A DNA stretch of 35,200 nt from Armatimonadota bacterium (GTDB lineage: Bacteria > Sysuimicrobiota > Sysuimicrobiia > Sysuimicrobiales > Humicultoraceae): assembly GCA_031459715.1 (NCBI GenBank), contig JAVKIA010000026.1, forward strand, positions 1 to 35,200, in the 5' to 3' direction. The notes beneath the pieces were generated by a model. That model made no database searches and was not told where the DNA came from. It saw only the letters and a program-made list of their open reading frames with translations. Below, in pieces: positions 2,918 through 34,976 of the stretch (the stretch's first letter is position 1; each line of letters opens with the position of its first letter). Both the position numbers and the translations under genes were made by a program.

Positions 2918-2929
2918 GGAGGAAGGGCC

Positions 2930-3130: not shown

Positions 3131-3160
3131 GCGGAGGACCGCTTTCGGGAGGAGATGGCG

Positions 3161-3463: not shown

Positions 3464-3479
3464 GCCAAGGAGGGCTGGC

Positions 3480-7725: not shown

Positions 7726-9329
7726 CAGAGGTGTCCGAACACCTGAACGCCGCCGATGAAGGTCGCCATCACGCCGATCTCGCCGAGCGCGTCAGGCTCG
7801 GCCGCAAACGGATCGTGCGACAGGACGACGAAATCGGCTAATTTTCCGGGTTCGAGGCTGCCGAGATGGGCTTCCTCGAAGGCGGCGTAGGCTCCGCCAA
7901 GCGTGTACCACTGGAGGGCTTCGCGCAACGTGATCGCCTCTTCCGGCACGCATGCGGCCCCGCTTACCGTTCTGCGGCAAATGGCGGCACACATACCCCG
8001 CAGTGGCGCACCGTCTACCACCGGCCGATCGGAGCTCAGAGCTACAGGAATGCCGCGGAGACTGGCCAGCGGGTAGGTGAGTCGCAGGCGATCCTCACCA
8101 AGAGCGCTTCGAAACCCATCCCCGAGTTCATAGATGAACCGCGGCTGGGTAACCACCACGACGCCGAGCCGCCTGATTCGCTCGATCAGGTCGGCCCGCA
8201 GAACCCCGCAGTGCTCAATGCGGGGCCGCCAGCGACCTGCCCCCGGCCCCATGGCGCGCTCAATGGCGTCCAGCCCCACCTCGATGGCCCGGTCCCCGAT
8301 GGCGTGCATGGCGACCTGCCATCCGCCGGCATGGGCCATGCGCACCTGTTCCGCGATCCGTTCTTGGGACTTGACCAGCAGCCCACAGTTGCCGTCGGTA
8401 TCGGCATACGGATCGGATAGCGCCGCCGTGCGCCCAATCAGCGACCCGTCGATGAAGATCTTGACAGCGCCCAGCCGGAGCCTCTCGTCTCCAAACCCTG
8501 AGTGCAGGCCGAACGCGAAGTCGAAGCGGCCGTCGCGGACCGCCAGCGACTCCACATCCACCATCAAACGCACCCGCTGCAGCAGTAGCCCTTCGCGGGT
8601 TGCCTCCTGGTATGCGCGAAACTCCTGAGGCGCGATCCAGCCGGCCCAGGCGTCCTGCACGCTGGTGAGGCCCTCGGAGGCCATCTGGCGTCCGGCAGCG
8701 GCCAGCGCCTCCTTGGTCCTCTCCAGCGAGTAGGGCGGCAGGACGCGCTTGACCAGTTCCTGGGCCGTTTCCTTCAGGACCCCGGTCGGCTCGCCGCCGG
8801 CTCCACGGTCAATCACTCCCCCCGGAGGATCGGGTGTGTGCCGGGTAATACCCGCAAGGCCCAGGGCGCGGGAGTTGGCGACGCCCATGTGGCCGGACAC
8901 GTGGATTAGCCAGACCGGATGGTCCGGAGAGGCGGGATCGAGATCGTGGCGGGTTGGGTGCCGGCGCTCGGCCAGCTTGTTCTCGTTGTAGCCGCCTCCC
9001 CGAATCCATTCACCGTGAGGGTATTGGGCCGCCCTGGATGCAACCGCCGTCACGATGTCGTTGATGCATGTGGCCGCTCTAACGTTGACTTCGATCAGAC
9101 TCAGCCCGAAGAGCAGCACATGACAGTGGGCATCGTGGAAGCCGGGTACGACGGTCCGGCCTTCGAGGTCAACGATCTCCGTGGACGGTCCGGCCAGGCC
9201 GCTCAGGTCTTCATCCATGCCCACAGCCACAACCTTTCCCTCCCGGACCGCGAGAGATTGCGCCTCCGGACGGTCGGGGTCAAGGGTGATGATACGGCCC
9301 CGGCGGAAGAAACGGTCAGCGAAAAGCAT
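7725..9329 (-). CDS. YtcJ-type metal-dependent amidohydrolase
   Basis: This 534-aa protein of the amidohydrolase superfamily (Amidohydro_3/YtcJ type) probably hydrolyses an amide, formamide or ester bond in the cytoplasm. The metal-binding HxH is H68/H70 in HDAHCHVLLFG. Further family marks are GAVKIFIDGSL (metal-bridging Lys region), MHAIGDRAI, IEHCG and the late Asp in SSDRPV. The N-terminal beta-sandwich and the C-terminal LGSLEPGKLADFVVL segment are both present, so it looks complete. It starts eight bases after the alcohol dehydrogenase stop and should be the last gene of that operon. The substrate cannot be read from sequence; the liv-type transporter upstream suggests an imported amide or amino-acid-like compound. 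Confidence 0.88.
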   Translation of the reverse strand: MLFADRFFRRGRIITLDPDRPEAQSLAVREGKVVAVGMDEDLSGLAGPSTEIVDLEGRTVVPGFHDAHCHVLLFGLSLIEVNVRAATCINDIVTAVASRAAQYPHGEWIRGGGYNENKLAERRHPTRHDLDPASPDHPVWLIHVSGHMGVANSRALGLAGITRHTPDPPGGVIDRGAGGEPTGVLKETAQELVKRVLPPYSLERTKEALAAAGRQMASEGLTSVQDAWAGWIAPQEFRAYQEATREGLLLQRVRLMVDVESLAVRDGRFDFAFGLHSGFGDERLRLGAVKIFIDGSLIGRTAALSDPYADTDGNCGLLVKSQERIAEQVRMAHAGGWQVAMHAIGDRAIEVGLDAIERAMGPGAGRWRPRIEHCGVLRADLIERIRRLGVVVVTQPRFIYELGDGFRSALGEDRLRLTYPLASLRGIPVALSSDRPVVDGAPLRGMCAAICRRTVSGAACVPEEAITLREALQWYTLGGAYAAFEEAHLGSLEPGKLADFVVLSHDPFAAEPDALGEIGVMATFIGGVQVFGHL

Positions 9330-9337
9330 GGCCCACC

Positions 9338-10468
9338 CTACGCGAACCGGATCACCTGCCGGACCACTTCCCCACCGGCCAGCGCGTCGAAAGCTGGGTT
9401 GATCTCGTCCAGCGCGATCGTGCGGGAAAGCAGGCGATCCACCGGCAGCAGCCCGGCCTGATAGAGGGCGATGAAGCGGGGGATATCGCGGCGCGGCACG
9501 GCTGAACCCATGTACGAGCCTCTGACCGTGCGCTCCTCGACCACCAGGCTCACCGCGGATACGGCAAACTGTCTCCCTGGGTGGGGAAGTCCAATGGTTA
9601 CCGTGACGCCGCCGCGCCGCGTGGCCTGGTAGGCCTGGGCCAGCACCCGCTCGCTGCCCACGCTCTCAAAGACATACGAGGCTCCACCGCCGGTGAGGTC
9701 GTGGACGGTCTCTACGGGGTCGCCTTCTTTCGCGCTCACGGTGTGCGTGGCGCCCACCTCTCGGGCTAGATGCAGCTTGCTCTCAACGAGGTCGACGACC
9801 ACGATCGGCCAGGCCCCTGCCAGGCGGGCGCCCATCACAGCGGAAAGCCCCACGCCGCCCAGGCCGAAGACCGCCACGCTGGCGCCTGGCTCGACCCGTG
9901 CCGTGTTGACCACGGCGCCGACTCCGGTCACCACCGCACACCCGAAGAGCGCCGCCTCCTCCAGCGACAGGGTCGGATCGATCTTGACCAGTGACTCCTG
10001 CGCGGCGACGGTAAACTGCGTGAAGGCTGAGACGCCCAGGTGGTGGTGGAGTGCCTGCCCGTCCCGGTCCCGGAAGCGGCGGGCGCCGGACAGCAGCGTA
10101 CCCGCCAGGTTGGCCTTCGCCCCATTCTCGCAGAGTGCCGGACGGCCGGTGGCGCATGGGCTACAGTGGCCACACGCCGGGACGAACGAGAAGACCACGT
10201 GATCGCCCGGTGCCAGGTCGGCCACCCCCGGCCCGATTTCGCGCACGACGCCGCTGGCCTCGTGGCCCAGCACCAAGGGCATGACGCGGGGGCGGGAGCC
10301 GTCGATCACCGACAGGTCCGAGTGACACAGCCCGGCCGCCGCGATCTGGATCAGCACCTCGCCCGGGCCCGGGCCGTCGAGGTCCACCTCCTCCACCACT
10401 AGCGGCCTCGACTCGGCATACGGCGGAGGCTGTTCCATCTTGTAGAGGACGGCGGCTCGCGTTTTCAT
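9338..10468 (-). CDS. Zinc-dependent alcohol dehydrogenase (MDR family)
   Basis: This 376-aa enzyme oxidises an alcohol or reduces an aldehyde with NAD(P). Catalytic zinc ligands are visible as C48, the GHE His at H69, and C177. The structural zinc lobe is C99-x2-C102-x2-C105-x7-C113. The nucleotide fold has GLGGVG at 202-207. Length and insertion pattern are closest to the class I/III long-chain zinc ADHs. An in-frame GTG two codons upstream is less likely as start, because GGAGG (10477-10481) lies eight bases before the ATG at 10468. It sits in a tight operon between an alpha/beta hydrolase and an amidohydrolase, which suggests stepwise catabolism of an ester or amide side chain. Confidence 0.9.
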   Translation of the reverse strand: MKTRAAVLYKMEQPPPYAESRPLVVEEVDLDGPGPGEVLIQIAAAGLCHSDLSVIDGSRPRVMPLVLGHEASGVVREIGPGVADLAPGDHVVFSFVPACGHCSPCATGRPALCENGAKANLAGTLLSGARRFRDRDGQALHHHLGVSAFTQFTVAAQESLVKIDPTLSLEEAALFGCAVVTGVGAVVNTARVEPGASVAVFGLGGVGLSAVMGARLAGAWPIVVVDLVESKLHLAREVGATHTVSAKEGDPVETVHDLTGGGASYVFESVGSERVLAQAYQATRRGGVTVTIGLPHPGRQFAVSAVSLVVEERTVRGSYMGSAVPRRDIPRFIALYQAGLLPVDRLLSRTIALDEINPAFDALAGGEVVRQVIRFA

Positions 10469-20861: not shown

Positions 20862-20888
20862 TTGCGTGCAGACGGGGTGAACGCGTGA
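20862..20888 (+). other. Possible 8-codon TTG leader coupled to the molybdoenzyme start
   Basis: AAAGGAG at 20850-20856 is the best ribosome site in the region. It serves a TTG at 20862, opening an 8-codon frame that stops at 20886-20888, overlapping the GTG start of the catalytic subunit (GTGA). The GTG has its own weaker GGGGTGA. Translation of the leader is unproven. Confidence 0.2.
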
Positions 20889-23461
20889 GGATCTCGCGAC
20901 GGACTTTCGTAAAGGGGGCGGCTGCGGCCGGTGGGGCGGCCGTAGCCGGGCGAGTCATCCCCCGCGGTATGGAGACGCTGGTGGCCGCCCGGCAGATCTC
21001 AGCCCCGGCGGTCACCGAGGAGTGGGTACCCACCACCTGCTGGATCGGCAAGCAGGACTGCGGGATACTGGCCCGCCGCATCAACGGGCGGATCGCGAAG
21101 CTGGAGGGCCATCCCGGGAACCCGCTCAACCGCGGCACCCTCTGCCCCAAAGGCGTGGCCCAGATCATCGCCGTCTACGACCCCCACCGGGTCAAGGCCC
21201 CCCTCATCCGCACCAACGAAAAAGGGGTCTCCGGGCGCTGGCGGCAGGCCACCTGGGACGAGGCTCTGGACCTGGTGGCCCGCCGCATCCGGGAGGTGCG
21301 GGCCAAGGACCCGAAGCTCCTCGTCTGGCAGAAGGGACGGAGCAAGGGCAAGGCGTTCTACGACGAGGCCTTCGTCAAGGCCTCGGGCGCCACCAAGCTG
21401 CACCATGGCGCCTTCTGCTCCGACGCCGGGTATCGCGCCTGCGAGTACACCGTGGGGATGTCCGGCGTGCTGCACCCCGACTTCCGGCACACCCGCTATC
21501 TGCTGGCCTGGGGCTGGAACGCCACCAACGCAGGCGGGAACCAGCTCTGCTGGATCACCTGGCCCCAGCAACTGGTGGCGGCGCGGGAGCGGGGACTGAA
21601 GGTGGTGGCGATCGACCCGCGGCTGCGCGGCGCCGGCCCCTTTGCCGACGAGTGGCTGCCCATCCGGCCGGGGACGGACCTGGCCCTGGCCCTGGCCCTC
21701 TGCCACGAGCTGGTCCGCCAGGGGACCATCGACCGCGACTACCTGACCCGGCACACCAACGCCCCGTTCCTGGTGCAGGAGGACGGTTTCTTCCTGCGGG
21801 TCGACGGCAAGGAGCAGGTCTGGGACGGCGCGCGGCACGCCCCCCGTCCCGCCGACGCGCCCGGGGTCACCCCGGCCCTGGAGGGGGAGTTCACCGTGGG
21901 GAGGCGGAAGGTGCGGACGGCCTTTCAGGTGTTCCGGGAGCACCTGGCCGCGTACACCCCGGAGTGGGCGGCCGAGGTCTGCGGCATTCCCGCCGAGACG
22001 ATCAGCCGCGTGGCCCGTGAGCTGGGAGAAGAGGCGCGCATCGGCAGCAGCACCGTCGTCGACGGCGTCACCCTCCCCTACCGTCCCGTGGCCATCATGG
22101 CCTACCACGTCTCCCAGCAGGAGCTGGGCTTCCAGGCCGTGCGGGCCATGCTGCTGGTGATGATGCTGCTGGGGGCGGTGGGCGCTGTAGGCGGGCAGCG
22201 GGTGGATGTGGGCGGGTGGAGCGTCCACGAGAACTTCGAGAAGCTGGAGCACATCGAGATCAAAGACCCTCCCTACAACATCTACCTGAAGGACAGCAAG
22301 TACTTCCCCATCAACAGCAACAACTCGTCGATGGTGGCCAGGGTGATGCTCAACCCGGAGAAGTACGGGGTGAAGGATCGACCGGAAGTGCTCATCGTGC
22401 ACATGAGCAATCCACTGGTGGCCTTTGCCTCGCAGCCCGACCTCATGGAATCCTACAAGAAGTTCAAGTTCGTGGCGGTCATCGACCCCTTGCTCTCGGA
22501 GACGGCCGACTACTTCGCCGACGTGGTGCTTCCGGCGGCCACCATCGAGAAGTACGAAGGTCCCAGCAAGGCCAGCGACCAGTACACAGACGGAGTCGCC
22601 CTGCGCATCCCTCCCATGAAGCCCCTCTTCCAGACACGGGGAGACATCGACATCTACCTGGACCTCTGTGAAAAGGCCGGCATCCTCTATGGGAAGGGCG
22701 GCTATCTGGACCACCTCAACCAGGCCCTCAAGCTCAAACCACCCTACCTCCTGCCTCTGGACCGCAAGCCCACCACACGCAGCATCTTCGACCGGTGGGC
22801 CCGCTCGGAGGGAATCAGCGACGGCGTGGCCTACTTCGAGAAGCACGGGGTGAAGGTGAAAGGCCCCATCCCTCCCGCTAAGGCGTACGGCTACGCCACC
22901 AGCCCGCCTTTCGGCGGGGTGCGCCACCGCCTCTACGGGGAGGCCCTGCTGCGCTACCGCCAGGAGATGCGCCAGCGCGGTGTCGCGCCCCTCTACTGGC
23001 AGGACTACACCCCGCTGCCCACCTGGCGCCGCCCCACCATGGAGGAATCTCCCGCCCGCTACGACCTCTACCTGATCAGCTACAAGATGATCGAGTTCAA
23101 GCAGTCGCGCAGCAGCTTCATCCCCCTGCTGGCGGAGCTGGCCCCCAGGCAGCGCCTGGACATCAACCCGCGGACGGCCCGGCAGCGGGGGATCCGCAAC
23201 GGCGAGGAGGTCTGGGTGGAGTCGCACAACGCCCTCACCGGGGAGACGCGCCGGGTGAGGGTGCCGGTGCACTACACCGAGGCTATCCGCCCGGACACGG
23301 TGGGCCTGCCGCACCACTACGGGCTGTGGAGCCATCCCTGGGCCAAGGGTCAGGGCCCCACGGCCAATGCCCTCTTCTTCACCGGCGAGGGCTACGTGGC
23401 CAACACCGCGGACCAGTCGTTCCATGTGAAGGTCCGGGTGTACAAAGGGGAGGAAGGGTAG
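20885..23461 (+). CDS. Tat-exported molybdopterin oxidoreductase, DMSO-reductase family catalytic subunit
   Basis: This 858-aa catalytic subunit of a complex iron-sulfur molybdoenzyme has a twin-arginine signal (SRRTFVKG), so it should act outside the cytoplasmic membrane. The N-terminal FS0 motif reads C52-x2-G55-x3-C59-x27-C87, with Gly in place of the usual second Cys, followed by the PKG Lys. C178 in HHGAFCSDAG is the likely Mo ligand, as in the type I polysulfide, thiosulfate and tetrathionate group. The C-terminal molybdopterin-binding domain is complete (LDINPRTARQRGI, NGEEVWVESHN). The GTG start directly follows an upstream in-frame stretch without a better start. It heads an operon with an Fe-S subunit, an NrfD anchor and a chaperone. 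The substrate (a sulfur oxyanion, polysulfide, arsenic species or other) cannot be told. Confidence 0.9.
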   Translation: MRISRRTFVKGAAAAGGAAVAGRVIPRGMETLVAARQISAPAVTEEWVPTTCWIGKQDCGILARRINGRIAKLEGHPGNPLNRGTLCPKGVAQIIAVYDPHRVKAPLIRTNEKGVSGRWRQATWDEALDLVARRIREVRAKDPKLLVWQKGRSKGKAFYDEAFVKASGATKLHHGAFCSDAGYRACEYTVGMSGVLHPDFRHTRYLLAWGWNATNAGGNQLCWITWPQQLVAARERGLKVVAIDPRLRGAGPFADEWLPIRPGTDLALALALCHELVRQGTIDRDYLTRHTNAPFLVQEDGFFLRVDGKEQVWDGARHAPRPADAPGVTPALEGEFTVGRRKVRTAFQVFREHLAAYTPEWAAEVCGIPAETISRVARELGEEARIGSSTVVDGVTLPYRPVAIMAYHVSQQELGFQAVRAMLLVMMLLGAVGAVGGQRVDVGGWSVHENFEKLEHIEIKDPPYNIYLKDSKYFPINSNNSSMVARVMLNPEKYGVKDRPEVLIVHMSNPLVAFASQPDLMESYKKFKFVAVIDPLLSETADYFADVVLPAATIEKYEGPSKASDQYTDGVALRIPPMKPLFQTRGDIDIYLDLCEKAGILYGKGGYLDHLNQALKLKPPYLLPLDRKPTTRSIFDRWARSEGISDGVAYFEKHGVKVKGPIPPAKAYGYATSPPFGGVRHRLYGEALLRYRQEMRQRGVAPLYWQDYTPLPTWRRPTMEESPARYDLYLISYKMIEFKQSRSSFIPLLAELAPRQRLDINPRTARQRGIRNGEEVWVESHNALTGETRRVRVPVHYTEAIRPDTVGLPHHYGLWSHPWAKGQGPTANALFFTGEGYVANTADQSFHVKVRVYKGEEG

Positions 23462-24207
23462 TGGCGCGCTACGCCATGGTCATCGACCTGGAGCGCTGCA
23501 CCGGGTGCCGCGCCTGCATGGAAGCCTGCAAGGTGGAGAACAATACCCCGCAGGCCAATTTCTGGATGTACGTCTTCCGCTTTGAAGAGGGGGAGTACCC
23601 CAACACTCGCGTCTGGTTCATGCCCCGACCGTGCATGCACTGCGACAACGCCCCCTGCGTCAAGGTCTGCCCTGTGGGGGCGCGCTACAAGCGGCTGGAC
23701 GGGCTGGTGGCCACCGACTTCGACCGCTGCATCGGCTGCCGCTACTGTGAGGTGGCCTGCCCCTACGGGGTGAACTACTTCAACTGGAAGAAGCCGGAAC
23801 GTAATCACTACATTGACTGGACGGACCGGGAGGCGGCCGCGCTGAACCCGGTGACCAACGGCGCGGTCCCTCCCTACAAGAACCCCGACCTGGAGAAGCC
23901 CTACGGGCCGGAGCGGCGGCGTATCGCCGGCGGCGGGCACCTCAAGGGCGTCATCGAGAAGTGCACCTTCTGCGTGCACCGGGTGGAGCGGGGCCAGCAG
24001 CCGGCCTGCGTGGCCAACTGCCCGCTCTTTGCCCTGCACTTCGGGGACCTGGACGACCCCGGCAGCAGGGTCTCCCAGTTGCTGCGCCGCCGGCCGCACT
24101 TCCGCCTCCTGGAGGAAGCGGGGACACAGCCGCGGGTGTACTACCTGGGCGGCAAGCCGCCCGGCGAGGAGAGCCGGCAGATCGAGGCCGTGCGGGCGAG
24201 GGTGTAG
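23461..24207 (+). CDS. Four-cluster [4Fe-4S] electron-transfer subunit (DmsB/PsrB type)
   Basis: This 248-aa ferredoxin-like subunit passes electrons between the catalytic and membrane subunits. The first motif is C13-x2-C16-x2-C19-x3-C23. Further groups are CMHCDNAPCVKVCP, CIGCRYCEVACP and CTFCVHRVERG with CVANCP, so four clusters are likely. It has no signal peptide and should be exported together with the Tat-bearing catalytic subunit. The GTG start shares one base with the previous stop. The length is typical of PsrB/TtrB/DmsB-like proteins. Confidence 0.93.
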   Translation: MARYAMVIDLERCTGCRACMEACKVENNTPQANFWMYVFRFEEGEYPNTRVWFMPRPCMHCDNAPCVKVCPVGARYKRLDGLVATDFDRCIGCRYCEVACPYGVNYFNWKKPERNHYIDWTDREAAALNPVTNGAVPPYKNPDLEKPYGPERRRIAGGGHLKGVIEKCTFCVHRVERGQQPACVANCPLFALHFGDLDDPGSRVSQLLRRRPHFRLLEEAGTQPRVYYLGGKPPGEESRQIEAVRARV

Positions 24208-24209
24208 CC

Positions 24210-25496
24210 ATGGTGACACGGGCGCAGCCGATTCCATACGGGGTGGGCCGCTTCTCCCCGGCGGCGGCACTGGTGGTCCTGCTGCTGCTGGCGGTGGTCG
24301 CTGCCGGGTTGTACGCCCTCTACACCCAGCTCACCGAGGGGTTGGTGGTGACCGGTCTGCGCGACATCGGCACCATGGGCGGCTCCGCCTGGGGCCTGTA
24401 CATAGCCTTCGACGTCTATTTCGTGGGGGTCAGCTTTGCCGGGATCACCACCGCCGCGCTGGTACGCATCCTCAACCTGCAACACCTGCGGGCGGTCTCC
24501 CGCATGGCCGAGCTGCTCACCATCGTTTCGCTGATCCTGGCCGCCTTCAGCGTCCTTCCCGACCTGGGCCAGCCCCTGCGCGGCATCGTCTACCTGTTCA
24601 AGTACGCCCGCCCACAGTCGCCGTTCTTCGGCACCTTCACCATGGTCATCGCCGGCTACCTCTTTGCCAGCCTGGTGTACTTCTTCCTGGACGGGCGGCG
24701 GGACGCCGCCATCTGCGCGCAGCGGCCAGGACGGCTGCAGTGGTTCTACCGCCTCTGGGCGTCGGGGTACCGGGGGACGGCAGAGGAGCGGGAGCGACAC
24801 GCCCGGGCCAGCTTCTGGCTCTCCCTGGCCATCCTCCCCCTGCTGGTGATCGCCCACTCCACGCTGGGGTTTGTCTTCGGGCTGCAGGTGGGGCGGCCAG
24901 GGTGGTTCAGCGCCCTGCAGGCGCCGGCCTTCGTCATCCTGGCGGGGGTATCGGGAGTGGGGCTGCTCATCGTCATCGCCGCCGTGGTGCGGCGGGTGCT
25001 GGATGCGCAGGACCGTCTCACCCCTGAGGTCTTCCGCTGGCTGGGCAACATGCTCATGGTGCTCATCGCCGCCTACCTCTACTTCATGGTCGTCGACTGG
25101 TTGACCGCCACCTACGCCGCGCCCAGCCACGAGGCCCGCACCTCCCGGGCCATCTTCTTCGGCCGGTATGCCCATATCTACTGGACCTCAGTGGTCGCCC
25201 TGGTGGTCGCCTTCGTCGTACAGTTCCGGCAGTTCATGCGGCAGCGCTATGAACTCTGGCGCATCGTTCTAAGCGGCGTGCTGGCCAACGTGGCCGCGGT
25301 GGGCAAACGGCTGCTCATCGTGGTCCCCTCGCAGACGCACGGCACCCTGCTGCCGTACCCGCCGGGGAGGTACAGCCCAACCTGGGTGGAGTATGGTATC
25401 GTTGCTGGGTTGTTTGGCCTGGGCACCTTGATGTACATGGTGGTTTCGAAGATCTTCCCCATCATCGAGCTCCCGGAGGAGGGAGTGGAGGGGTAA
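24210..25496 (+). CDS. nrfD: NrfD/PsrC-family membrane anchor, about 10 TM
   Basis: This 428-aa polytopic protein is expected to anchor the molybdoenzyme and exchange electrons with quinones. About ten membrane helices can be drawn, so it belongs to the longer HybB/TtrC-like branch of NrfD proteins rather than the 8-TM PsrC type. The second helix has WGLYIAFDVYFVG, with the acidic residue common in this family. The late segment PSQTHGTLLPYPPGRYSPTW is also typical. The ATG lies two bases after the previous stop. No heme-ligating His pairs of a diheme b protein are apparent. Confidence 0.9.
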   Translation: MVTRAQPIPYGVGRFSPAAALVVLLLLAVVAAGLYALYTQLTEGLVVTGLRDIGTMGGSAWGLYIAFDVYFVGVSFAGITTAALVRILNLQHLRAVSRMAELLTIVSLILAAFSVLPDLGQPLRGIVYLFKYARPQSPFFGTFTMVIAGYLFASLVYFFLDGRRDAAICAQRPGRLQWFYRLWASGYRGTAEERERHARASFWLSLAILPLLVIAHSTLGFVFGLQVGRPGWFSALQAPAFVILAGVSGVGLLIVIAAVVRRVLDAQDRLTPEVFRWLGNMLMVLIAAYLYFMVVDWLTATYAAPSHEARTSRAIFFGRYAHIYWTSVVALVVAFVVQFRQFMRQRYELWRIVLSGVLANVAAVGKRLLIVVPSQTHGTLLPYPPGRYSPTWVEYGIVAGLFGLGTLMYMVVSKIFPIIELPEEGVEG

Positions 25497-25499
25497 GCC

Positions 25500-25757
25500 A
25501 TGCGGGCATTACTCACACGGTTGACGGTGCTCGCGGGGGTAGCGTTCGCGGTCACCAGCTTTGCGCTGGGACTGCGCCTGCCCATCCCGGGGGTTCCTCA
25601 GCTCGCCGCCACGCCGGCGGGACTGCCTGCGGAGATTCCTTACCTACCGGCCTTCTTCATCCTGGGAATCATGCTGATGTTCCTCTCGGCGGTGGTGTAT
25701 GAACTCCTCCCCGGCAACCGCAACGCCTCGCCACCAGTCCGCCCCCGGCCGCGCTGA
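25500..25757 (+). CDS. Small two-TM protein of the molybdoenzyme operon
   Basis: This 85-aa protein starts three bases after the NrfD stop with GAGGAGGGAG upstream. It has one hydrophobic N-terminal helix (about 7-25, possibly a signal anchor), an exposed Pro-rich loop of about 25 residues, a second helix (about 50-68) and a Pro/Arg-rich tail. I do not recognise it. Position and topology suggest a small membrane subunit or assembly aid for the NrfD protein. Confidence 0.6.
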   Translation: MRALLTRLTVLAGVAFAVTSFALGLRLPIPGVPQLAATPAGLPAEIPYLPAFFILGIMLMFLSAVVYELLPGNRNASPPVRPRPR

Positions 25758-26472
25758 CGGCGGGAGGAGCCGGGGGAATCCTCTGATTTCCCTACCCGCG
25801 CTGGCCCGCTGGCGCGGCGAGTGCTACCAACTGTTGGGGTGTGGCTTTCTCTTCCCCACGCCCGAGCGCCTGGAAAGGATGACCAAGGCTGCCCTCCGCC
25901 AGGAGCGGGCCGGCCAGGCCTTCGCCGGCCTGGCCATCTACCCCCGTTGGCGGTCACTCCTGCGGATGGTGCGGCAGGCCGGAGGGCAGGCCGACGCGCT
26001 GCAGGCGGATTTCAGCCGGTTGTTCGTCGCCGGCCGCGATGGTTGCGCTCCGAACGAGTCCCATCAGCTCGCCCTCGAGCCTGCGGAGGCCACGGTTCTG
26101 AATGCGGCCCTGGAGCGGGAGTACGCCGACGAGGGGGTCACGTTGCACCCTGCGGCCGGGGAGCTGCCGGACCATGCCGCGGTGGAGATGGAGTTTGTGG
26201 CGTTCCTGTGCGACAGGGAGCGCGCGGCCTGGAGGAACCGGCATGGAGCGGAAGGGAGGCGTCTCCTGCTGCGCCAGCGGCAGTTCCTCCGGCAGCACCT
26301 GGGGCGGTGGATTGCGCGGTTTGCCCGGGAGGTGCGGCGGGCGGACTCCCGGGGATGGTACGGCGAGGTGGCCGGGGCGGCTGCTGCCTTCATCCACCAC
26401 GACCAGGATCTCGTGGACCTTCTGGTCAGATGGACTGAGGAATCCGATGGCAGCGGGGTAGGGACGGGATGA
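25699..26472 (+). CDS. TorD/DmsD-like molybdoenzyme chaperone
   Basis: This is a helical protein of up to 257 aa, resembling the TorD/NarJ family that guards the Tat signal and cofactor insertion of a cognate molybdoenzyme. Family features are the ADFSRLFVAG segment, then APNESH (with C116) where many members have a P-x-E-S motif, and the AAVEMEFVAFLC helix. The similarity is moderate. The only ATG lies 59 bases inside the previous gene and has a weak ribosome site. The first 27 residues look non-native, so translation may really begin near 25775 at an unusual codon, after GGGAGGAG. It probably serves the catalytic subunit encoded at 20885. Confidence 0.7.
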   Translation: MNSSPATATPRHQSAPGRADGGRSRGNPLISLPALARWRGECYQLLGCGFLFPTPERLERMTKAALRQERAGQAFAGLAIYPRWRSLLRMVRQAGGQADALQADFSRLFVAGRDGCAPNESHQLALEPAEATVLNAALEREYADEGVTLHPAAGELPDHAAVEMEFVAFLCDRERAAWRNRHGAEGRRLLLRQRQFLRQHLGRWIARFAREVRRADSRGWYGEVAGAAAAFIHHDQDLVDLLVRWTEESDGSGVGTG

Positions 26473-28085
26473 ACCGGCCCGCCGGGGAAGGCAACGGGCA
26501 CCCGCCGGCGGCGGTCCTGCTGTGCGCGCACCTTGACGGTGTCGGAAGCGGGCTTGACGTGCGCGTGGTGCGGGGGACCCTGGAGGAGACCCTGCCGGCC
26601 GTGCACGTGCGCACCCTCGATGAAGTCTGCCGCCAGCCCCGGAGGATCAGCGCCGCCGTCCGCGCCACCGGAGCAGTCAGGCTGGTCCTGGGCCTCTGCC
26701 GGCACGGCTATGCGGCAGCGGAGCTTCAGGCCCAGGTACGGAAGGCCGGCCTCGACCCTCTGGGGGTTGAGGTGGTGGACCTGGGGGCCTACGCTGCCTG
26801 GGTGCACTCCCGCCAGGAGGCGACGCAGAAGGCCCGGGTCCTCCTGGCTGCGGGGATAGCCCGGGCGCGGGCATTCACCGAAAGCCGTCCCCAGAACCTG
26901 AAACCGCTCCTGCCGGGGGCGGTGAGCCGGCGTGGCCTCCTCAGCCTTTCACTTCTGGAGTACCAGGCGGTTCCGGCCGTCGCGGTGGAGCGCTGCCACG
27001 CCGAAGAGGGCTGTCGGGAGTGCCTGGGCACCTGCCCGCACCAGGCATTCCGCCTGGAGGACGGTGAGATCCGACTGAATAAGTCGCGCTGCACCTCCTG
27101 CGGGACCTGCGTAACCGCCTGCCCCCACGGGGCCATGGACCTGCCCGGCTGGACGGCCGGACAGGTGGAAGCGTACCTGGGCGCGCTCCTTTGCGCTCCT
27201 CCTGAAGAGCTGGCCCCCCGGGCCGTCCTGGTTGTTTGCAGGCACGGGGCCGCCGCACTGAAGTCATTGGCCGCTTCAGGGGCATCCTATCCGGTGAACT
27301 GGTTTCCCCTGGAGGTCCCCTCGCTGGGGATGGTGCCGCCCACATGGCTGCTGGCCCTTCTGAACCTGGGGGCGGCGGGGGTGGGAGTTGTCTCCTGCCC
27401 CCAGGCATGTGGAGCCACCTCTTTGGCCCAGATCGAGAGGCGGGTGGACTTCTGCCGGGAGGTCCTCAAGCAGGCAGGAGAACATCCGGGACGGGTCGCG
27501 CTTCTCCCGGCTAGGCCCTCCGCCCTGCTGGAGACCCTGCGGACCGCGCCCAAGGAGTTCATCCCCGTGTCGGTCCAGGCTCCCCCGGTGGTTCCCGCCA
27601 TGGCTAGCCCCTTCGCCTACCCTTCCCGCGGCCGCGTGCTGACAGCCCTGGGTGAGCGCCTCGGCGCGTCCTCCCTCGTATTGCACCACCCGGCGTCGCC
27701 CTTCGGTCTCGTTCAGGTGGGTGCCGGCTGCACGCTGTGCGGCGCGTGCGCGGCGGCGTGCGGCCCGGGGGCTCTACGGCTGGAAGGCGATGGCGAGGCC
27801 GCCCTGACCTTTGACCCGACCCTGTGTACCGCCTGCGGGCGGTGCCTGCCGGCCTGTCCCGAGCCAGGTACCCTGATCCTCCACCCCAGAGCCGACCTGC
27901 GGATCCTCTCCCGTGGCAGGGTGGCCCTGGCCCGAAGCCACTACGGCCGGTGTGAGGCCTGCGGCGGGCCGATCGCGCCCCAGCCGATGCTGGAGCGGAT
28001 GGCTGCGCTTCTGGGAGGCGAGAACGCCCGGGGGGCGCACATCATCACCCGGTACTGCTCCGCCTGCCGCGGCCTGGCGCACTGA
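26469..28085 (+). CDS. HdrA-N / ferredoxin / MvhD-like / ferredoxin mosaic Fe-S protein
   Basis: This 538-aa cytoplasmic protein is built from parts of the heterodisulfide reductase system. Residues about 14-140 resemble the HdrA N-terminal domain (VRLVLGLCRHGY, then KAGLDPLGVEVVDL and WVHSRQEATQKA). Residues 176-220 carry two [4Fe-4S] motifs. Residues about 235-345 look like MvhD/FlpD (AVLVVCRHGAAA, VGVVSCPQACGAT). Residues 421-470 carry two more [4Fe-4S] motifs, and a CEACGG...CSAC pair lies near the end. The HdrA FAD domain is missing: no GxGxxG is seen. It probably relays electrons between soluble carriers and the membrane complex or another enzyme. The ATG overlaps the chaperone stop. 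Confidence 0.75.
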   Translation: MNRPAGEGNGHPPAAVLLCAHLDGVGSGLDVRVVRGTLEETLPAVHVRTLDEVCRQPRRISAAVRATGAVRLVLGLCRHGYAAAELQAQVRKAGLDPLGVEVVDLGAYAAWVHSRQEATQKARVLLAAGIARARAFTESRPQNLKPLLPGAVSRRGLLSLSLLEYQAVPAVAVERCHAEEGCRECLGTCPHQAFRLEDGEIRLNKSRCTSCGTCVTACPHGAMDLPGWTAGQVEAYLGALLCAPPEELAPRAVLVVCRHGAAALKSLAASGASYPVNWFPLEVPSLGMVPPTWLLALLNLGAAGVGVVSCPQACGATSLAQIERRVDFCREVLKQAGEHPGRVALLPARPSALLETLRTAPKEFIPVSVQAPPVVPAMASPFAYPSRGRVLTALGERLGASSLVLHHPASPFGLVQVGAGCTLCGACAAACGPGALRLEGDGEAALTFDPTLCTACGRCLPACPEPGTLILHPRADLRILSRGRVALARSHYGRCEACGGPIAPQPMLERMAALLGGENARGAHIITRYCSACRGLAH

Positions 28086-28403: not shown

Positions 28404-29126
28404 ATGCGGCGGACCGAGGGGGTCCACGGTTTGATCGACCTGCAGCCCACGCGCTCACAGTTGCTCCGCATCATCAGGGAGCGCGGCGGGGTGACGCTGC
28501 GCGACCTGCAGCAGGCCACGGGCCTCTCCCGGTCTACCCTCCGCCAGCACCTGACCATCCTGCAGCGCGACGGAGCCGTCCGGGAACGCCTGCTGCGGGG
28601 TCGGCCGGGACGTCCGCCCATCGTCTACGAGCCCTCCCCGGCTGCCCCGCGGCGTGCCCTGGAGAGCTATGCCGCCATCCTAGGTGCCGTCCTGCGCGTT
28701 GTCGGCGGGCAGGGTACGCATCAGGTGCGGCGGATCGCTGAGGCCGCCGCGGTCGAGATCGCCCGACGGCATGCCCACATCGCGACGCTATTGTCCCTGG
28801 AGGATCGCATCACCGCGGCCCTGGGAGCCCTACTTGAAGATGCCCGCACGGCGGAGGTCAGGCCTGTGGGGAGGGACTACGAGGTCGTCCTCCGCGATTG
28901 TCCCCTGCTGGCTTTGGCTGGGGAGCTCCCTCAGATCTGCGGGATCACCCGCGAGTTGCTGCACAGGCTCACCGGGGCGACGGTGGAGCAGCGCAGGTGG
29001 ATGCTGCGAGGTGACCCGTGCTGCTCCTTCCTGCTGAAGGCGAAACGGGCCGGCAGGCGCTCCCGCGCCGCGCCGGGGCGGCGAGAGGACGTGAGACCGG
29101 ATGGCTGGAGGGGCGTCCATGGATGA
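28404..29126 (+). CDS. Winged-helix regulator with Cys-containing C-terminal sensor
   Basis: This 240-aa regulator has an ArsR/SufR-like helix-turn-helix (about residues 14-75: GVTLRDLQQATGLSRSTLRQ, then HLTILQRDGAV) and a basic wing RGRPGRPP. The C-terminal part has C166, C179 and C206-C207 in the order CP...C...GDPCCSF. This is like the domain of SufR and V4R-type regulators, which can bind an Fe-S cluster or sense redox state. One Cys usual before the GD step is Met here. The frame ends in a basic tail that overlaps the start of the next gene by eight bases, so it is the first gene of the NXR-like operon and probably its local regulator. Confidence 0.8.
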   Translation: MRRTEGVHGLIDLQPTRSQLLRIIRERGGVTLRDLQQATGLSRSTLRQHLTILQRDGAVRERLLRGRPGRPPIVYEPSPAAPRRALESYAAILGAVLRVVGGQGTHQVRRIAEAAAVEIARRHAHIATLLSLEDRITAALGALLEDARTAEVRPVGRDYEVVLRDCPLLALAGELPQICGITRELLHRLTGATVEQRRWMLRGDPCCSFLLKAKRAGRRSRAAPGRREDVRPDGWRGVHG

Positions 29127-32100
29127 GAAGAGAAGGGATTCCCCGGCAGCGGAAGGCGAAGCGCCGGGAAACGGTGGCGTCTGCGGCGGCCTGACCCGGC
29201 GGGAGTTCCTGGGATCCGCGGGCGCCGCGGTGGGCGGCCTGGCGCTGGCCCAGGCCCTCCCCCTGCGGCTGCTGCAGCCGCTGGCAGCCATCGACAACCC
29301 ACTGGGCTTCTACCCGGACCGCGAGTGGGAAAAGGTCTACCGCGACCAGTACCGCTACGACGGCAGTTTCACCTTCGTCTGCTCTCCCAACGACACCCAC
29401 CACTGCCGCCTGCGCGCCTTTGTGCGCAACGGCGTGATCATGCGCATCGAGCAGAACTACGATGTGCAGCGCTACACCGACCTCTACGGAAACAGGGCCA
29501 CTCCCCACTGGAACCCCCGCGGCTGCCTGAAGGGCTACACCTTCCACCGCCGCGTCTACGGGCCCTACCGGCTGAAGCACCCCCTGGTGCGCCGCGGGTG
29601 GAAGGCATGGGCGGACGACGGCTTCCCGGAGCTCACCCCTGCCCTGCGGGGGAAGTACCGTTTCGACAGCCGGGGGACCGATGCGTTCGAGCGGGTCTCC
29701 TGGGAGCAGGCCTACGACTACATCGGGAGGGCCTTCATCGCCATCGCCCGGCGCTACAGCGGCCCGGAGGGCGCACGGCGGCTCCAGGCCCAGGGCTACC
29801 CGCCGGAGATGGTGGAGGCGATGCACGGGGCGGGGGTGCGCACCTTCAAGTTCCGCGGTGGGATGGGGCTGCTGGGGGTCATAGGCAAGTACGGCCTGTG
29901 GCGGGCCGCCAACATGATGGCGCTGCTGGATGCCCACGTGCGCGGGGTGGGTTCCGACCAGGCGCTGGGCGCCCGCAAGTGGAGCAACTACACCTGGCAC
30001 GGCGACCAGGCTCCGGGGCAGCCCTTCGTCCACGGCCTGCAGGCCTCGGACGTGGATTTCAACGAGCTGCGCCACGCCCGTCTGCACATCCAGGTGGGCA
30101 AGAACCTCATCGAGAACAAGATGCCGGAGTCCCACTTCTTCAATGAGCTGATGGAGCGCGGCGCGCGCATCGTCGTCATCACCCCCGAGTACAGCCCGCC
30201 CGCGGTCAAGGCCGACTACTGGATGCCTGTCCGCCCGCAGACCGACGCCGCGCTCTTCCTGGGCATCACCCGGCTCATGATGGACAACCGCTGGTATGAC
30301 GAAACCTTCGTCAAGCGGTTCACGGACTTCCCCCTGCTCATCCGGCAAGACACCCTGAAGCGGCTGCGCGCCGCCGAGGTCTTCCCCGACTACCGCCCCG
30401 GGCTGGACCCGCAGGGTCCCAGCTTTACGCGGCAGAACCTGCGGCCGGACCAGTACGCGCAGCTGGGCGACTTCGTCATCTTCGACCGCAGGACCAGGCG
30501 GCTGCAGCCGCTCACCCGCGACCAGGTGGGCGAGCGCATGGCCCGGGCGGGCCTGGACCCCGACCTGGCCTGGCGCGGCCGGGTGAAGCTGGTAGACGGC
30601 CGGGAGGTGGAGTGCCTCACCCTGTGGCAGGCCTACCGCGACCACCTGCGCGATTACGACCTGGACACCGTGGTCGAGATCACCCAGACCCCTAGGGAGA
30701 TGATCCGCCGCCTGGCGCGGGACATGGCCACCATCAAGCCGGTGGCCATTCACATCGGCGAGGGGATCAACCACTGGTTCCACGCCACCCTGGCCAACCG
30801 CGCCTTCTACCTGCCGCTGATGCTCACCGGGAATATCGGCGTCCCCGGCGCAGGCTGTCACACCTGGGCCGGCAACTACAAGGCCGGCATCTTTCAGGGC
30901 TCCCCCTGGACGGGTCCGGGGATCACGGGGTGGCTCTTCGAGGACCCCTTCAACCCAGCATTGGATCCGACCACGCCCGGGCGGCAGATCAAGGTGAAGA
31001 AGTACCTCAAGGACGAGGAGCCGGCCTACTGGGACCACGGGGACGTGCCGTTGATCGTGGAGACCCCCAAGGCGGGGCGCAAGGTCTTCACCGGCCAAAC
31101 CCACATGCCCACGCCCACCAAGGTCATCTGGTACAACAACGTCAACATCCTGAACAACGCCAAGTGGGCCTACGGGGTGATCAAGAACGTCAACCCCCGG
31201 GTGGAGCTGATCATCAACCAGGACATCGAGATGACCGCCAGCGCCGAGTACGCAGACATAATCCTGCCGGCCAACTCCTGGGTGGAGTTCCAGACCTACG
31301 AGCTGACCGCGTCCTGTTCCAACCCCTTCCTGCAGATCTGGAAGGGGGGCATCAAACCCCTCTACCAGACCAAGGACGACGGTGTGATCATTGCCGAGGT
31401 GGCGGCGAAGCTGACGGAGTTGACCGGCGACCGGCGCTTCCGCGACTACTTCAAGTTCTTGCTGGAGCGCCGCCCCGAGGTCTACATCCAGCGCATCCTG
31501 GACAGCGCCACCTCCACCGTCGGCTACCGGGTGGGGGACATCCTCGCCGGCCGATACGGTGAGCCCGGCGCAGCCCTCATGCTATTCCGCACCTACCCCC
31601 GGGTGCCGTTCTTCGAGCAAATCCACGACAGCGAGCCTTTCTACACCGACACCGGCCGGCTGAACAGCTACTGCGACCTGCCAGAGGCCATCGAGTACGG
31701 GGAGAACTTCATCGTACACCGGGAGGGGCCGGAGGCGACGCCCTACCTCCCCAACGTCATCGTCAGCGCTAACCCCCTGGTGCGGCCCAACGACTACGGC
31801 ATCCCCCTGGATGCGCTGCACTGGGACCAGCGCACGGTGCGCAACGTGAAGATGCCGTGGCGGGAGGTGAAGCGGACCAAGAACCCGCTCTGGGAGCAGG
31901 GCTATCGCTTCTACCTGCTCACGCCCAAAACCCGACACCGCGTGCACTCCTCCTGGAGCACCGTGGACTGGAATATGATCTGGGAATCCAACTTCGGCGA
32001 CCCGTACCGGCTGGACCGGCGCACTCCCGGGGTGGGCGAGCACCAGCTGCACATCAACCCCCAGGCGGCGCGGGACCTGGGGATCAATGACGGGGACTAC

Positions 32101-32631
32101 GTCTATGTGGACGCCTATGCCGCCGACCGGCCCTACATCGGCTGGAAGCCGGACGACCCCTTCTACCGCGTCGCCCGCTGCATGGTGCGGGCGCGTTACA
32201 ACCCGGCCTATCCCTACAACGTCCTGATGATGAAGCACGGCCCCTTCATGGCCACGGAGAAGTCGGTGCGCGCCCACGAGAGCCGGGCCGACGGGCTGGC
32301 CCGCTCCGCGGACACCGGCTACCAGGCCAACCTGCGCTACGGCAGCCAGCAGTCGGTGACCCGCGACTGGCTGATGCCCATGCACCAGACCGACACCCTC
32401 TTCCACAAGGCCAAGGGGGCGGTGGCCTTCGTATTCGGGGGCGAGGCGGACAACCATGCGGTGAACACCGTACCCAAGGAGACGCTGGTGAAGATCACCA
32501 AGGCGGAGGACGGCGGCATGGGTGGCAGAGGACTGTGGGAGCCGGCCCGCACCGGGTTCTCTCCTGGGCGGGAGAACGAGTTCATGCGCCGCTACCTCTC
32601 GGGCGCCCTGGTGGAGGTGAGGCGGCGGTGA
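29119..32631 (+). CDS. nxrA: NXR-clade type II molybdoenzyme, alpha subunit
   Basis: This 1170-aa catalytic subunit interconverts nitrite and nitrate in known relatives. A Tat signal (LTRREFLGSAG) places it in the periplasm, unlike cytoplasmic NarG. FS0 reads C88-x3-D92-x3-C96-x39-C136, with Asp where NarG has Cys. The likely Mo ligand is D296 in YTWHGDQAPG, the type II pattern. From memory, the CSPNDTHHCRLRAFVRNG region and the KFRGGMGLLGVIGKYGL, GEGINHWFHATLANR and RYGSQQSVTRDW segments match Nitrospira/anammox NxrA closely. An ATG six codons earlier exists, but GGAGGGG lies six bases before 29119. It could be a nitrite oxidoreductase or a periplasmic nitrate reductase of the same clade; perchlorate and selenate reductases are more distant options. 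Confidence 0.85.
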   Translation: MDEKRRDSPAAEGEAPGNGGVCGGLTRREFLGSAGAAVGGLALAQALPLRLLQPLAAIDNPLGFYPDREWEKVYRDQYRYDGSFTFVCSPNDTHHCRLRAFVRNGVIMRIEQNYDVQRYTDLYGNRATPHWNPRGCLKGYTFHRRVYGPYRLKHPLVRRGWKAWADDGFPELTPALRGKYRFDSRGTDAFERVSWEQAYDYIGRAFIAIARRYSGPEGARRLQAQGYPPEMVEAMHGAGVRTFKFRGGMGLLGVIGKYGLWRAANMMALLDAHVRGVGSDQALGARKWSNYTWHGDQAPGQPFVHGLQASDVDFNELRHARLHIQVGKNLIENKMPESHFFNELMERGARIVVITPEYSPPAVKADYWMPVRPQTDAALFLGITRLMMDNRWYDETFVKRFTDFPLLIRQDTLKRLRAAEVFPDYRPGLDPQGPSFTRQNLRPDQYAQLGDFVIFDRRTRRLQPLTRDQVGERMARAGLDPDLAWRGRVKLVDGREVECLTLWQAYRDHLRDYDLDTVVEITQTPREMIRRLARDMATIKPVAIHIGEGINHWFHATLANRAFYLPLMLTGNIGVPGAGCHTWAGNYKAGIFQGSPWTGPGITGWLFEDPFNPALDPTTPGRQIKVKKYLKDEEPAYWDHGDVPLIVETPKAGRKVFTGQTHMPTPTKVIWYNNVNILNNAKWAYGVIKNVNPRVELIINQDIEMTASAEYADIILPANSWVEFQTYELTASCSNPFLQIWKGGIKPLYQTKDDGVIIAEVAAKLTELTGDRRFRDYFKFLLERRPEVYIQRILDSATSTVGYRVGDILAGRYGEPGAALMLFRTYPRVPFFEQIHDSEPFYTDTGRLNSYCDLPEAIEYGENFIVHREGPEATPYLPNVIVSANPLVRPNDYGIPLDALHWDQRTVRNVKMPWREVKRTKNPLWEQGYRFYLLTPKTRHRVHSSWSTVDWNMIWESNFGDPYRLDRRTPGVGEHQLHINPQAARDLGINDGDYVYVDAYAADRPYIGWKPDDPFYRVARCMVRARYNPAYPYNVLMMKHGPFMATEKSVRAHESRADGLARSADTGYQANLRYGSQQSVTRDWLMPMHQTDTLFHKAKGAVAFVFGGEADNHAVNTVPKETLVKITKAEDGGMGGRGLWEPARTGFSPGRENEFMRRYLSGALVEVRRR

Positions 32632-32921
32632 GGGCAGTGGCCAAGCCCTTCGCTCCCGACGACCCGCTGGCGCTGGTGGGGGTGGCCCTGCCGCCCTCGG
32701 AAGGCGCCCTGGAGGAGATGGCGCGGACGTTTATCCAGGAGTACCTGCTGCAGGGGTGGGACGAGCGCAGGCTGCTGGCCCTCTTCCGCAACCCCTTCTA
32801 TCGGGCGCCGCACCTGGTCTACCGGGCACGCGGGGAGGAGTACGTCAGGCGGCTGATCGCCGAGGCCCTGGCCGGATGGGGCCAGACGTGTGCGCTGCAG
32901 GAGGAGAGTCACCATGCCTGA
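32628..32921 (+). CDS. 97-aa protein between the alpha and beta subunits
   Basis: The GTG overlaps the alpha-subunit stop (GTGA), and the frame ends eight bases inside the beta-subunit gene, so its translation is tied to both. The protein is soluble and helical. The central motif MARTFIQEYLLQGWDERRLL runs on into ALFRNPFYRAPHLVYRARG, a pattern I have seen in small uncharacterised proteins beside other bacterial respiratory gene clusters. There are no Cys pairs for Fe-S binding (one Cys near the end). An assembly or maturation role for the AB pair is plausible but inferred from position only. Nitrospira nxrAB clusters, as I recall them, lack a gene here. Confidence 0.7.
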   Translation: MRAVAKPFAPDDPLALVGVALPPSEGALEEMARTFIQEYLLQGWDERRLLALFRNPFYRAPHLVYRARGEEYVRRLIAEALAGWGQTCALQEESHHA

Positions 32922-34167
32922 CGTCTACAACTGGCACCTCGGCCGACCCATGTCCTACCGCTTCGCCGAGCGACACCCCCGCTTCCAGTTCGCCGCTGTC
33001 TTCAACATCAACCGCTGTATCGGCTGCCAGACCTGCACCATGGCCTGCAAGAGCACCTGGACCTTCAGCCGTGGCCAGGAGTATATGTGGTGGAACAACG
33101 TGGAGTCCAAGCCCTACGGCGGCTACCCCCAGTTCTGGGATGTAAAGCTGCTGCAGCTGCTGGAGCAGGCCAACCCCGGCGGCCAGACCTGGGATGCCCG
33201 GAAGCGGGACCCCGCCCGCGCCCCCTACGGGACGTACCAGGGGAAGACGGTCTTCGAAGCTGCGCCGGCCGGCGCCGAGGCGCTCGGGTACCTCCCCACA
33301 GACGAGGAGTGGCGCGCGCCTAACATCTACGAGGACACCTCCACGTCCTACCCCACCGGACCCGGCACCTTCCACTCCACCGGGGAGCAACTTCCCGAGC
33401 ACCGCACCTGGTTCTTCCACCTGCAGCGCATCTGCAACCACTGCTCCTACCCCGCCTGCCTGGCCGCCTGCCCGCGCAACGCCATCTACAAGCGGCCGGA
33501 GGACGGGATCGTCCTCATCGACCAGAAGCGCTGCCGCGGCTACAAGAAGTGCGTGGAGGCCTGCCCCTACAAGAAGCCCATGTTTAACGCGTACACCCGG
33601 GTCAGCGAGAAGTGCATCGGCTGCTACCCCCGGGTGGAGGGGCGGGAGCCCCTCTTTCCCGGCGCGCCGGTGGAGCCGCGCTGCATGGCCGCCTGCGTGG
33701 GGAAGATCCGCCTGCAGGGGCTGGTACGCCTCAACCCTGATGGATCCTGGGCGGAGGACCGGCGGAACCCCCTTTACTACCTGGTGCGCGTGGCCCGGGT
33801 GGCCCTTCCCCTCTACCCCCAGTTTGGGACCCAGCCCAACGTTTACTACATCCCTCCGCGCTGGGTGCCGCGCGCCTACCTGCGGCAGATGTTCGGGCCG
33901 GGCGTCGACGAGGCGGTGGAGACGTACATGGCTCCGCCGCGGGAGCTACTGGCGGTGCTGCAGCTCTTCCGCAGCGCGCAGCGCATCATCTTCAGCTACC
34001 GCATCGAGGAGGGGCCGAAGGTCCTGGAGACCCGGATCAACGGCCGGAAGTGGGAGATGTTTAACGACACGGTGATCGGGCTGGACCGGGCCGGCCAGGA
34101 GATCGTGCGCCTGTCGGTGCAGGAGCCTGTGTACACACGGCCGCGGCAGCACCTCAACTCCATCTGA
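32914..34167 (+). CDS. nxrB: NXR-clade beta subunit, four Fe-S clusters
   Basis: This 417-aa electron-transfer subunit begins MPDVYNWHLGRPMSYRFAER, close to Nitrospira NxrB as I remember it. Cluster motifs are C35-x2-C38-x2-C41-x3-C45, C174-x2-C177-x4-C182-x3-C186, C207-x2-Y210-x2-C213-x3-C217 (Tyr in place of a Cys, as in the [3Fe-4S] site of NarH-type subunits, which have Trp), and CIGCYPR with a later RCMAACVGK. The QEYMWWNNVESKPYGGYPQF segment is a clade hallmark. The frame opens eight codons earlier, but GGAGGAG about eight bases before 32914 and the homologous N-terminus fix the start. It has no signal peptide and should be exported with alpha. Confidence 0.88.
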   Translation: MPDVYNWHLGRPMSYRFAERHPRFQFAAVFNINRCIGCQTCTMACKSTWTFSRGQEYMWWNNVESKPYGGYPQFWDVKLLQLLEQANPGGQTWDARKRDPARAPYGTYQGKTVFEAAPAGAEALGYLPTDEEWRAPNIYEDTSTSYPTGPGTFHSTGEQLPEHRTWFFHLQRICNHCSYPACLAACPRNAIYKRPEDGIVLIDQKRCRGYKKCVEACPYKKPMFNAYTRVSEKCIGCYPRVEGREPLFPGAPVEPRCMAACVGKIRLQGLVRLNPDGSWAEDRRNPLYYLVRVARVALPLYPQFGTQPNVYYIPPRWVPRAYLRQMFGPGVDEAVETYMAPPRELLAVLQLFRSAQRIIFSYRIEEGPKVLETRINGRKWEMFNDTVIGLDRAGQEIVRLSVQEPVYTRPRQHLNSI

Positions 34168-34178
34168 AGGACGCGTTG

Positions 34179-34976
34179 ATGGACGCAGGGAGGCCCTTTA
34201 CGGTTCAGGATGCCGCCGGGCCCGCCGTCGCCCTGGCCCGCAGCGCCGTCTACCGGTTCCTCTCGCTGGCCTTCTTGCCCCCGGCAGAGGAACTGAGTGT
34301 GTTGCGGTCGGAAGGAACGGCCCTGCTGCGGGCACTGGATGGCCTGCGCGCCGCGGAGGGCGATGCCACCAGGGGCGGTGTGGTAGCGGGGGATCTGCTG
34401 GCCAGCCTTGGGAACACCGACGGGCCGGCTTTGCGCGCGCACTACCACCAAGTCTTCGGCCACCAGGCCTGCGCCGACTGCCCACTCTACGAGACCCCGT
34501 ATGTGGCCGCGGAGATCTTCCAGCAGGCGCAGCAGCTTGCCGACATTGCCGGGTTCTACCGCGCCTTCGGCCTCGAGGTCGCCGAAGAGGCCGGGGAGCG
34601 GTTAGACCACGCCAGCCTGGAGCTGGAGTTCATGGGCGCCCTGGCCTATCGGGAGGCCTACGCCCTGGTCCACCACGGGCCGGCGGAGGTGACCCTGCTG
34701 CAGGAGGCGCAGCGGGCCTTCCTCCGCGATCACCTGGCCCGGTGGGTGCCTCTCCTGGCCCGGCTGGTCAGGCGGCGTGCGGAGGGCTTCTACCGGCACC
34801 TGGCCGATCTGGCGGAGGCGTGGATCGCCCGGGAGGCGGCGGCATTCGGCATGGCCACCGCTGATGCCACCGGGGTCTCCCTTCCGGGAGCAGGGATGAC
34901 CCTCCCCACGCAGGATCCGCAGGTCCAGCCTGTGATGTGCACGGGGGAAAGATGCCCCCTGGACGACCTGCCGTAG
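34179..34976 (+). CDS. NarJ/TorD-family chaperone of the NXR-like enzyme
   Basis: This 265-aa helical protein of the TorD/NarJ family assists cofactor insertion and Tat proofreading of the alpha subunit. The core motif CADCPLYETPYV holds C98, C101 and E105; LADIAGFYRAFGLEV and LDHASLELEFMGAL are typical helices. AAGGA lies seven bases before the ATG at 34179; a TTG one codon earlier is less likely. The C-terminal tail adds GERCPLDDLP with another Cys, and a possible metal site is worth noting. It starts 11 bases after the beta subunit. It is clearly different from the chaperone at 25699, so each molybdoenzyme has its own. Confidence 0.88.
   Translation: MDAGRPFTVQDAAGPAVALARSAVYRFLSLAFLPPAEELSVLRSEGTALLRALDGLRAAEGDATRGGVVAGDLLASLGNTDGPALRAHYHQVFGHQACADCPLYETPYVAAEIFQQAQQLADIAGFYRAFGLEVAEEAGERLDHASLELEFMGALAYREAYALVHHGPAEVTLLQEAQRAFLRDHLARWVPLLARLVRRRAEGFYRHLADLAEAWIAREAAAFGMATADATGVSLPGAGMTLPTQDPQVQPVMCTGERCPLDDLP

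Follow-up and report, generated by a model that had tools for sequence, protein, structure and literature searches.

Introduction

TorD-bisC-nrfD operons are known, as are TorD-fdh operons with 'fer4' or hypothetical ferredoxins (Bay et al. 2015, PMC4464133), and a gene for a 4Fe-4S protein or polyferredoxin of unknown function beside a TorD/SreE chaperone gene is already in the literature (PMC4464133, PMC3189178). One such polyferredoxin is SreD of the sreABCDE sulfur reductase operon, encoded beside the nitrate-reductase-type chaperone SreE; the T. tenax sre operon, which is without Tat motifs, is also without sreD and sreE (PMC3189178). NapF of the nap operon is a cytoplasmic accessory of a Tat-exported molybdoenzyme. 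In E. coli it binds NapA, in Rhodobacter sphaeroides the Fe-S assembly of NapA depends on it, and its effects elsewhere are milder; a 2023 review notes that few answers are available for NapA and discusses conflicting NapF results (PMC10609526). HycF, subunit 6 of formate hydrogenlyase, has a cysteine quartet that holds a metal ion near the contact with the molybdoenzyme FdhF, and redox-dependent control of FdhF binding was proposed for this metal site by the authors of that study (PMC9474812).

Here we analyze a locus in a 35,200-nucleotide stretch of DNA (the window) from an Armatimonadota bacterium. It encodes a multi-cluster Fe-S protein that belongs to a family of Bacteria and Archaea whose sole annotation is '4Fe-4S binding protein'.

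Results

Genomic context of the focus gene

The focus gene is an open reading frame of 538 amino acids at 26469..28085 on the + strand. As originally predicted, it lies 3' of a TorD gene, and the operon encodes a Tat-exported molybdoenzyme of NrfD type. The upstream genes, all on the + strand, are those for a PsrA/PhsA-like molybdopterin catalytic subunit carrying the Tat motif RRTFV (20885..23461), followed by a four-cluster Fe-S subunit of PsrB/NrfC type (23458..24207) and an NrfD/PsrC-type membrane anchor (24204..25496), the start codons of these last two being approximate. Next is the TorD/NarJ-family chaperone (25699..26472; PF02613, E 6e-19). The ATG of the focus gene (26469) overlaps the TorD stop codon (end 26472), an arrangement seen in translationally coupled genes.

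The focus gene is followed, at 28404, by a gene for an HTH regulator with weak similarity to SufR (31 bits, cut-off 179) and cysteines near its C-terminus. It precedes a second molybdoenzyme operon (28404-34976 with the regulator, + strand) of the type II DMSO-reductase family, with NarG/EbdA-like and NarH-like subunits and a second TorD. This block also adjoins the focus operon in another family of the order (locus L025). Elsewhere in the window, a 1576-aa open frame (401-5131, − strand) runs antisense to a heavy-metal P-type ATPase gene and the genes following it, and is probably a high-GC artefact. The source genome contains three further FlpD/MvhD genes, at about 38-41 kb and 73-77 kb of G000:C2 and at about 11.6 kb of G000:C22; those on G000:C2 stand beside HdrA-like, HdrBC-like and hydrogenase-like ORFs, apart from the focus operon.

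Domain architecture of the focus protein

The original prediction held that pieces of Hdr and Mvh type are fused here without the FAD domain, and domain searches agreed, matching HdrA-N, FlpD/MvhD and two Fer4 pairs. The HdrA N-terminal-type domain (aa 14-143; 26508..26897, + strand) carries invariant C19, C54 and C77. It was matched by phmmer against solved HdrA (aa 11-136, i-E 0.002), by an HMM built from 12 HdrA proteins (aa 14-143, i-E 9e-13) and by profile-profile comparison with HdrA at 98% probability. The first 4Fe-4S pair (aa 176-223; 26994..27137, + strand) opens with a cluster motif of unusual spacing, Cx5Cx2Cx3C. Between the two 4Fe-4S pairs is the FlpD/MvhD-fold domain (aa 256-347; 27234..27509, + strand), which was matched by Pfam model PF02662 over the same residues (E 5e-10, 39.9 bits against a cut-off of 22.3). 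The second, NapF/HycF-like pair follows (aa 421-466; 27729..27866, + strand), and the C-terminus bears a HycF-like CxxC-x31-CxxC metal site (aa 495-533; 27951..28067, + strand). Thus, the modules named in the prediction were right, while this metal site and one lost FlpD cysteine had been overlooked. Pfam returned no FAD/Pyr_redox match in the protein, and residues 143-176 form only a short linker. A signal peptide match was also absent, which points to a cytoplasmic location.

The AlphaFold2 model of the protein (pLDDT 88.8, pTM 0.88) was compared with the PDB using Foldseek, and chains of HdrA, HycF and MvhD ranked at the top: HdrA with an E-value of 3.5e-9, MvhD (5odc_D) with a TM-score of 0.66 of target and HycF with 0.64-0.68 of target. 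Across the window protein and five intact orthologues of 36-48% identity, 26 cysteines are invariant (16 in the Fer4 pairs, three in HdrA-N, three in FlpD and four in the C-terminal ribbon), indicating that the architecture did not arise by chance. C257, C310, C314 and C329 are present in the FlpD domain, and one canonical cysteine position is Ser285. C329 might substitute for this missing 2Fe-2S ligand; given Ser285, the FlpD cluster of the window protein is uncertain.

Comparison with HdrA2

HdrA2, the HdrA-MvhD fusion, is the best NCBIfam match of the focus protein (108 bits against a cut-off of 1100) and has HdrA-N, Fer4x2 and FlpD in the same order. In contrast to HdrA2, the focus protein is without the FAD domain and HdrB/C partners, has an extra HycF/NapF-like C-terminal module and differs in first-cluster spacing. 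The first cluster reads Cx5-9Cx2Cx3C in 36 of 38 family members, compared with CxxCxxCxxxC in the inspected HdrA2 controls; CHAEEGCRECLGTC of the window protein fits the family spacing. This cysteine signature and the neighbouring genes separate the family from HdrA2.

A tree of the Fer4-FlpD region (~190 columns) supported the window clade at 0.997 and joined it to TorD-linked members at 0.70. Five fdh-type members fell among the HdrA2 controls, possibly through long-branch attraction, and a tree this short does not settle the deep branch order.

Comparison with accessory proteins of other operons

The '4Fe-4S binding protein' of proteobacterial fdh operons with TorD, DUF3305 and DUF3306 shares with the focus protein the core Fer4x2-FlpD-like-Fer4x2-Cys ribbon, a TorD/Tat molybdoenzyme neighbourhood and, by profile comparison, an HdrA-N-like N-terminus. 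Unlike the focus protein, it accompanies a formate dehydrogenase rather than a PsrABC-type enzyme, has lost the FlpD cysteines (alphaproteobacterial type) and contains an extra segment of 100-150 aa between HdrA-N and the first ferredoxin pair. In three such proteins (L039, L042 and L072), all without the FlpD cysteines, this extra segment resembles, on visual inspection, a reduced Rossmann fold left over from the flavin domain of HdrA. Shewanella SO_4506 probably belongs with this type, and SreD is likened to the focus protein as well; the likeness is one of gene neighbourhood alone for SO_4506 and of operon alone for SreD. In the open-access literature, we found mentions but no functional study of DUF3305/3306, SO_4506 or SreD.

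Similar to the focus protein, NapF has four 4Fe-4S motifs, and the first spacing is long in one of them, the third cluster in E. coli NapF; all 16 aligned family members matched NapF. However, NapF is only about 164 aa, with the module order swapped, no HdrA-N or FlpD, and NapD rather than TorD as its chaperone. This swapped layout and a TIGR00402 (NapF) score below cut-off (54.9 bits against 102.2) led us to reject the focus protein as a NapF orthologue. HycF shares a ferredoxin pair and a CxxC...CxxC metal site, spaced CxxC-x34-CPxC in HycF and CxxC-x31-CxxC in the focus protein, but it belongs to a hydrogenase complex and has neither HdrA-N nor FlpD, and the focus protein scored 38.8 bits against PRK12387 (HycF), below the cut-off of 204.

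Distribution of the family

A scan of genome contigs with a single sequence found no relatives, whereas a profile scan did. The core profile of the TorD-linked Fer4x2-FlpD-Fer4x2 family, as we define it here, drew on the order set and the first profile-scan relatives, and it matched the focus protein over model positions 3-372 with an E-value of 2e-117, the window protein being itself in the seed alignment. In six other genomes of the same order the gene follows PsrA-PsrB-NrfD-TorD, one copy being split, and the TorD stop overlaps the start of the gene in the window and most order orthologues. Profile searches placed members in a SAR324 MAG, Bradyrhizobium, Spiribacter, a betaproteobacterium, Actinobacteria, Chloroflexi, Geoglobus and others, and the core profile afterwards brought up further members among 386 broadly sampled genomes and among 398 from an archaeal phylum. 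Proteobacterial members in fdh operons carry the annotation '4Fe-4S binding protein'. Archaea have exactly the architecture of the window protein: L236 encodes a 550-aa protein with HdrA-N (i-E 3e-25), FlpD (E 1e-26) and two Fer4 pairs, adjoining TorD. A plasmid search with the window protein gave no match, and viral contigs yielded a single weak match confined to the ferredoxin region.

Most members retain the cysteines of the FlpD domain and the fdh type has lost them; we therefore rejected the FlpD domain as a dead scaffold family-wide. Several irregular copies were also seen. The orthologue at L030 (G018, 8972-10352) is broken into three frames and is either a pseudogene or an assembly error. 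At L031 (G005, 9480-9821), a short copy of 113 aa covers no more than the last part of the C-terminal Fer4/metal module and sits immediately upstream of a PsrB-NrfD-Mo gene set. In L189, L190 and L192 the NapF/HycF-like C-terminal module is a separate protein of ~200 aa adjoining an HdrA2-type protein and a PsrB-like ferredoxin, so this module also exists unfused.

TorD is the most constant partner of the family

The most constant partner of the family is a TorD-type chaperone, not NrfD, and the membrane anchor changes. TorD was found within 3 kb at 52 of 67 family loci, compared with none of 16 HdrA2 controls, and NrfD was found near ~30 of the 67 (about 45%); genes in surveyed loci were called by simple ORF finding and purpose-built profiles, and both counts can miss divergent copies. 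The TorD total comprises 34 of 39 loci plus 18 of 28 archaeal loci. In the unbiased bacterial set the comparison was 18 of 23 against 0 of 16 HdrA2 controls (Fisher p 1e-6). Co-occurrence with NrfD, which the original prediction had proposed to survey for NrfD-type operons, is far less frequent than that with TorD. HdrB/C genes were within 8 kb at one of 67 family loci compared with 11 of 16 HdrA2 controls, and neither HdrB nor HdrC was found among the annotated window genes.

The partner molybdoenzymes carry Tat motifs almost wherever a start could be called, while their anchor varies: NrfD (present in the window and six order orthologues), cytochrome b561, or none recognised nearby. Some relatives occur with cytochrome-b formate dehydrogenases without NrfD. 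Alphaproteobacterial members lie in fdh operons with TorD and DUF3305/3306, and the Fe-S carrier ApbC is added at some alpha- and betaproteobacterial loci. A universal TorD linkage was rejected, as 15 of the 67 loci have no TorD within 3 kb. Among loci without TorD, L175 and L177 encode proteins of about 313-321 aa two genes from TatC (Pfam E 1e-66 and 2e-64), and L169 has MoCF/FmdE genes nearby. Several archaeal and short bacterial copies stand away from molybdoenzymes.

Discussion

Because TorD usually adjoins its relatives, the focus protein most likely helps assemble molybdoenzymes rather than wiring them. We consider it probable that it is a NapF-like accessory (maturation) factor working with TorD on a Tat-exported Mo/W enzyme before export. 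By this proposal, the protein would descend from an HdrA2-type ancestor (HdrA-N, FAD, Fer4x2, MvhD) that lost the FAD domain and gained a HycF-like ferredoxin/metal module, the order of these steps being presumed. It would act in the cytoplasm with the upstream-encoded TorD on the PsrABC-type catalytic subunit before export, through a putative contact, and would assist the loading of clusters or cofactor by providing Fe-S clusters or low-potential electrons. The NapF precedent fits such a pre-export role and, together with ApbC at some loci and TatC or Mo-cofactor/FmdE genes at TorD-less loci, favours maturation. The likeness to NapF comes mainly from ferredoxin motifs, which are generic, and HdrA-N and MvhD serve electron transfer or docking where they are known, making electron transfer possible.

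The role originally predicted was that of a soluble hub linking a cytoplasmic donor or acceptor through NrfD to the membrane molybdoenzyme. Electron wiring stays in consideration because all modules are redox modules, with up to five or six clusters plus the metal site; in the complex already known, FlpD/MvhD is the part that docks HdrA to a hydrogenase, and NrfD is encoded in the window and its six order orthologues. However, we judge such wiring unlikely, the weaker reading of the locus: NrfD lags well behind TorD in the survey and is absent from fdh-type operons, Hdr partners are absent, and the FlpD cysteines are lost in fdh-type members, one of them also in the window. Moreover, the Tat-exported catalytic subunit lies across the membrane, where a cytoplasmic protein cannot meet it after export, and NrfD proteins are not known to carry heme.

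Still more doubtful is a sensing role, in which the protein would respond to redox state or metal and gate TorD-dependent export, for instance by retaining the precursor until its clusters are in place or there is no oxygen. The surface metal site resembles the one in HycF, where control of FdhF binding by redox state was proposed, and the gene is coupled with TorD, but the protein has no DNA-binding or signalling domain and its sequence offers nothing to tell a sensor from a maturation factor. Lastly, a soluble subunit of a cytoplasmic bifurcating complex of Hdr/Mvh type, that is, a shortened HdrA2 or a fragment of it, is largely refuted and highly improbable: HdrA2 is the best NCBIfam match and the shared regions are homologous, but the score is far under cut-off, the FAD domain is lost, HdrB/C are nearly absent from family loci, the first-cluster spacing differs and separate FlpD genes exist elsewhere in the genome.

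The original prediction also held that this is not a described system. The operon type and the polyferredoxin gene had in fact been published, but we found no description of the HdrA/MvhD ancestry, the cysteine signature or the cross-domain TorD coupling in the open-access literature, nor any functional study or experiment on a family member; the HdrA/MvhD ancestry of the accessory protein thus appears undescribed.

Returning to the maturation role, a broader version can be advanced tentatively, at somewhat less than even chances: this one HdrA/MvhD-derived family of bacteria and archaea may be a general redox maturation factor acting with TorD-type chaperones on Tat-exported Mo/W enzymes. If true, NapF-like proteins, archaeal SreD-like polyferredoxins and fdh-operon Fe-S proteins would come under one mechanism, and parts of heterodisulfide reductase would have been reused for enzyme assembly. 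How Tat-exported molybdoenzymes receive their Fe-S clusters and molybdenum cofactor is only partly understood, and a conserved Fe-S protein that is coupled to TorD, in operons for formate dehydrogenases, polysulfide-reductase-type enzymes and others, is a concrete candidate amenable to deletion and testing in ordinary laboratory bacteria. The family would also show a route open to HdrA-type proteins, in which the flavin domain is lost and another role is taken.
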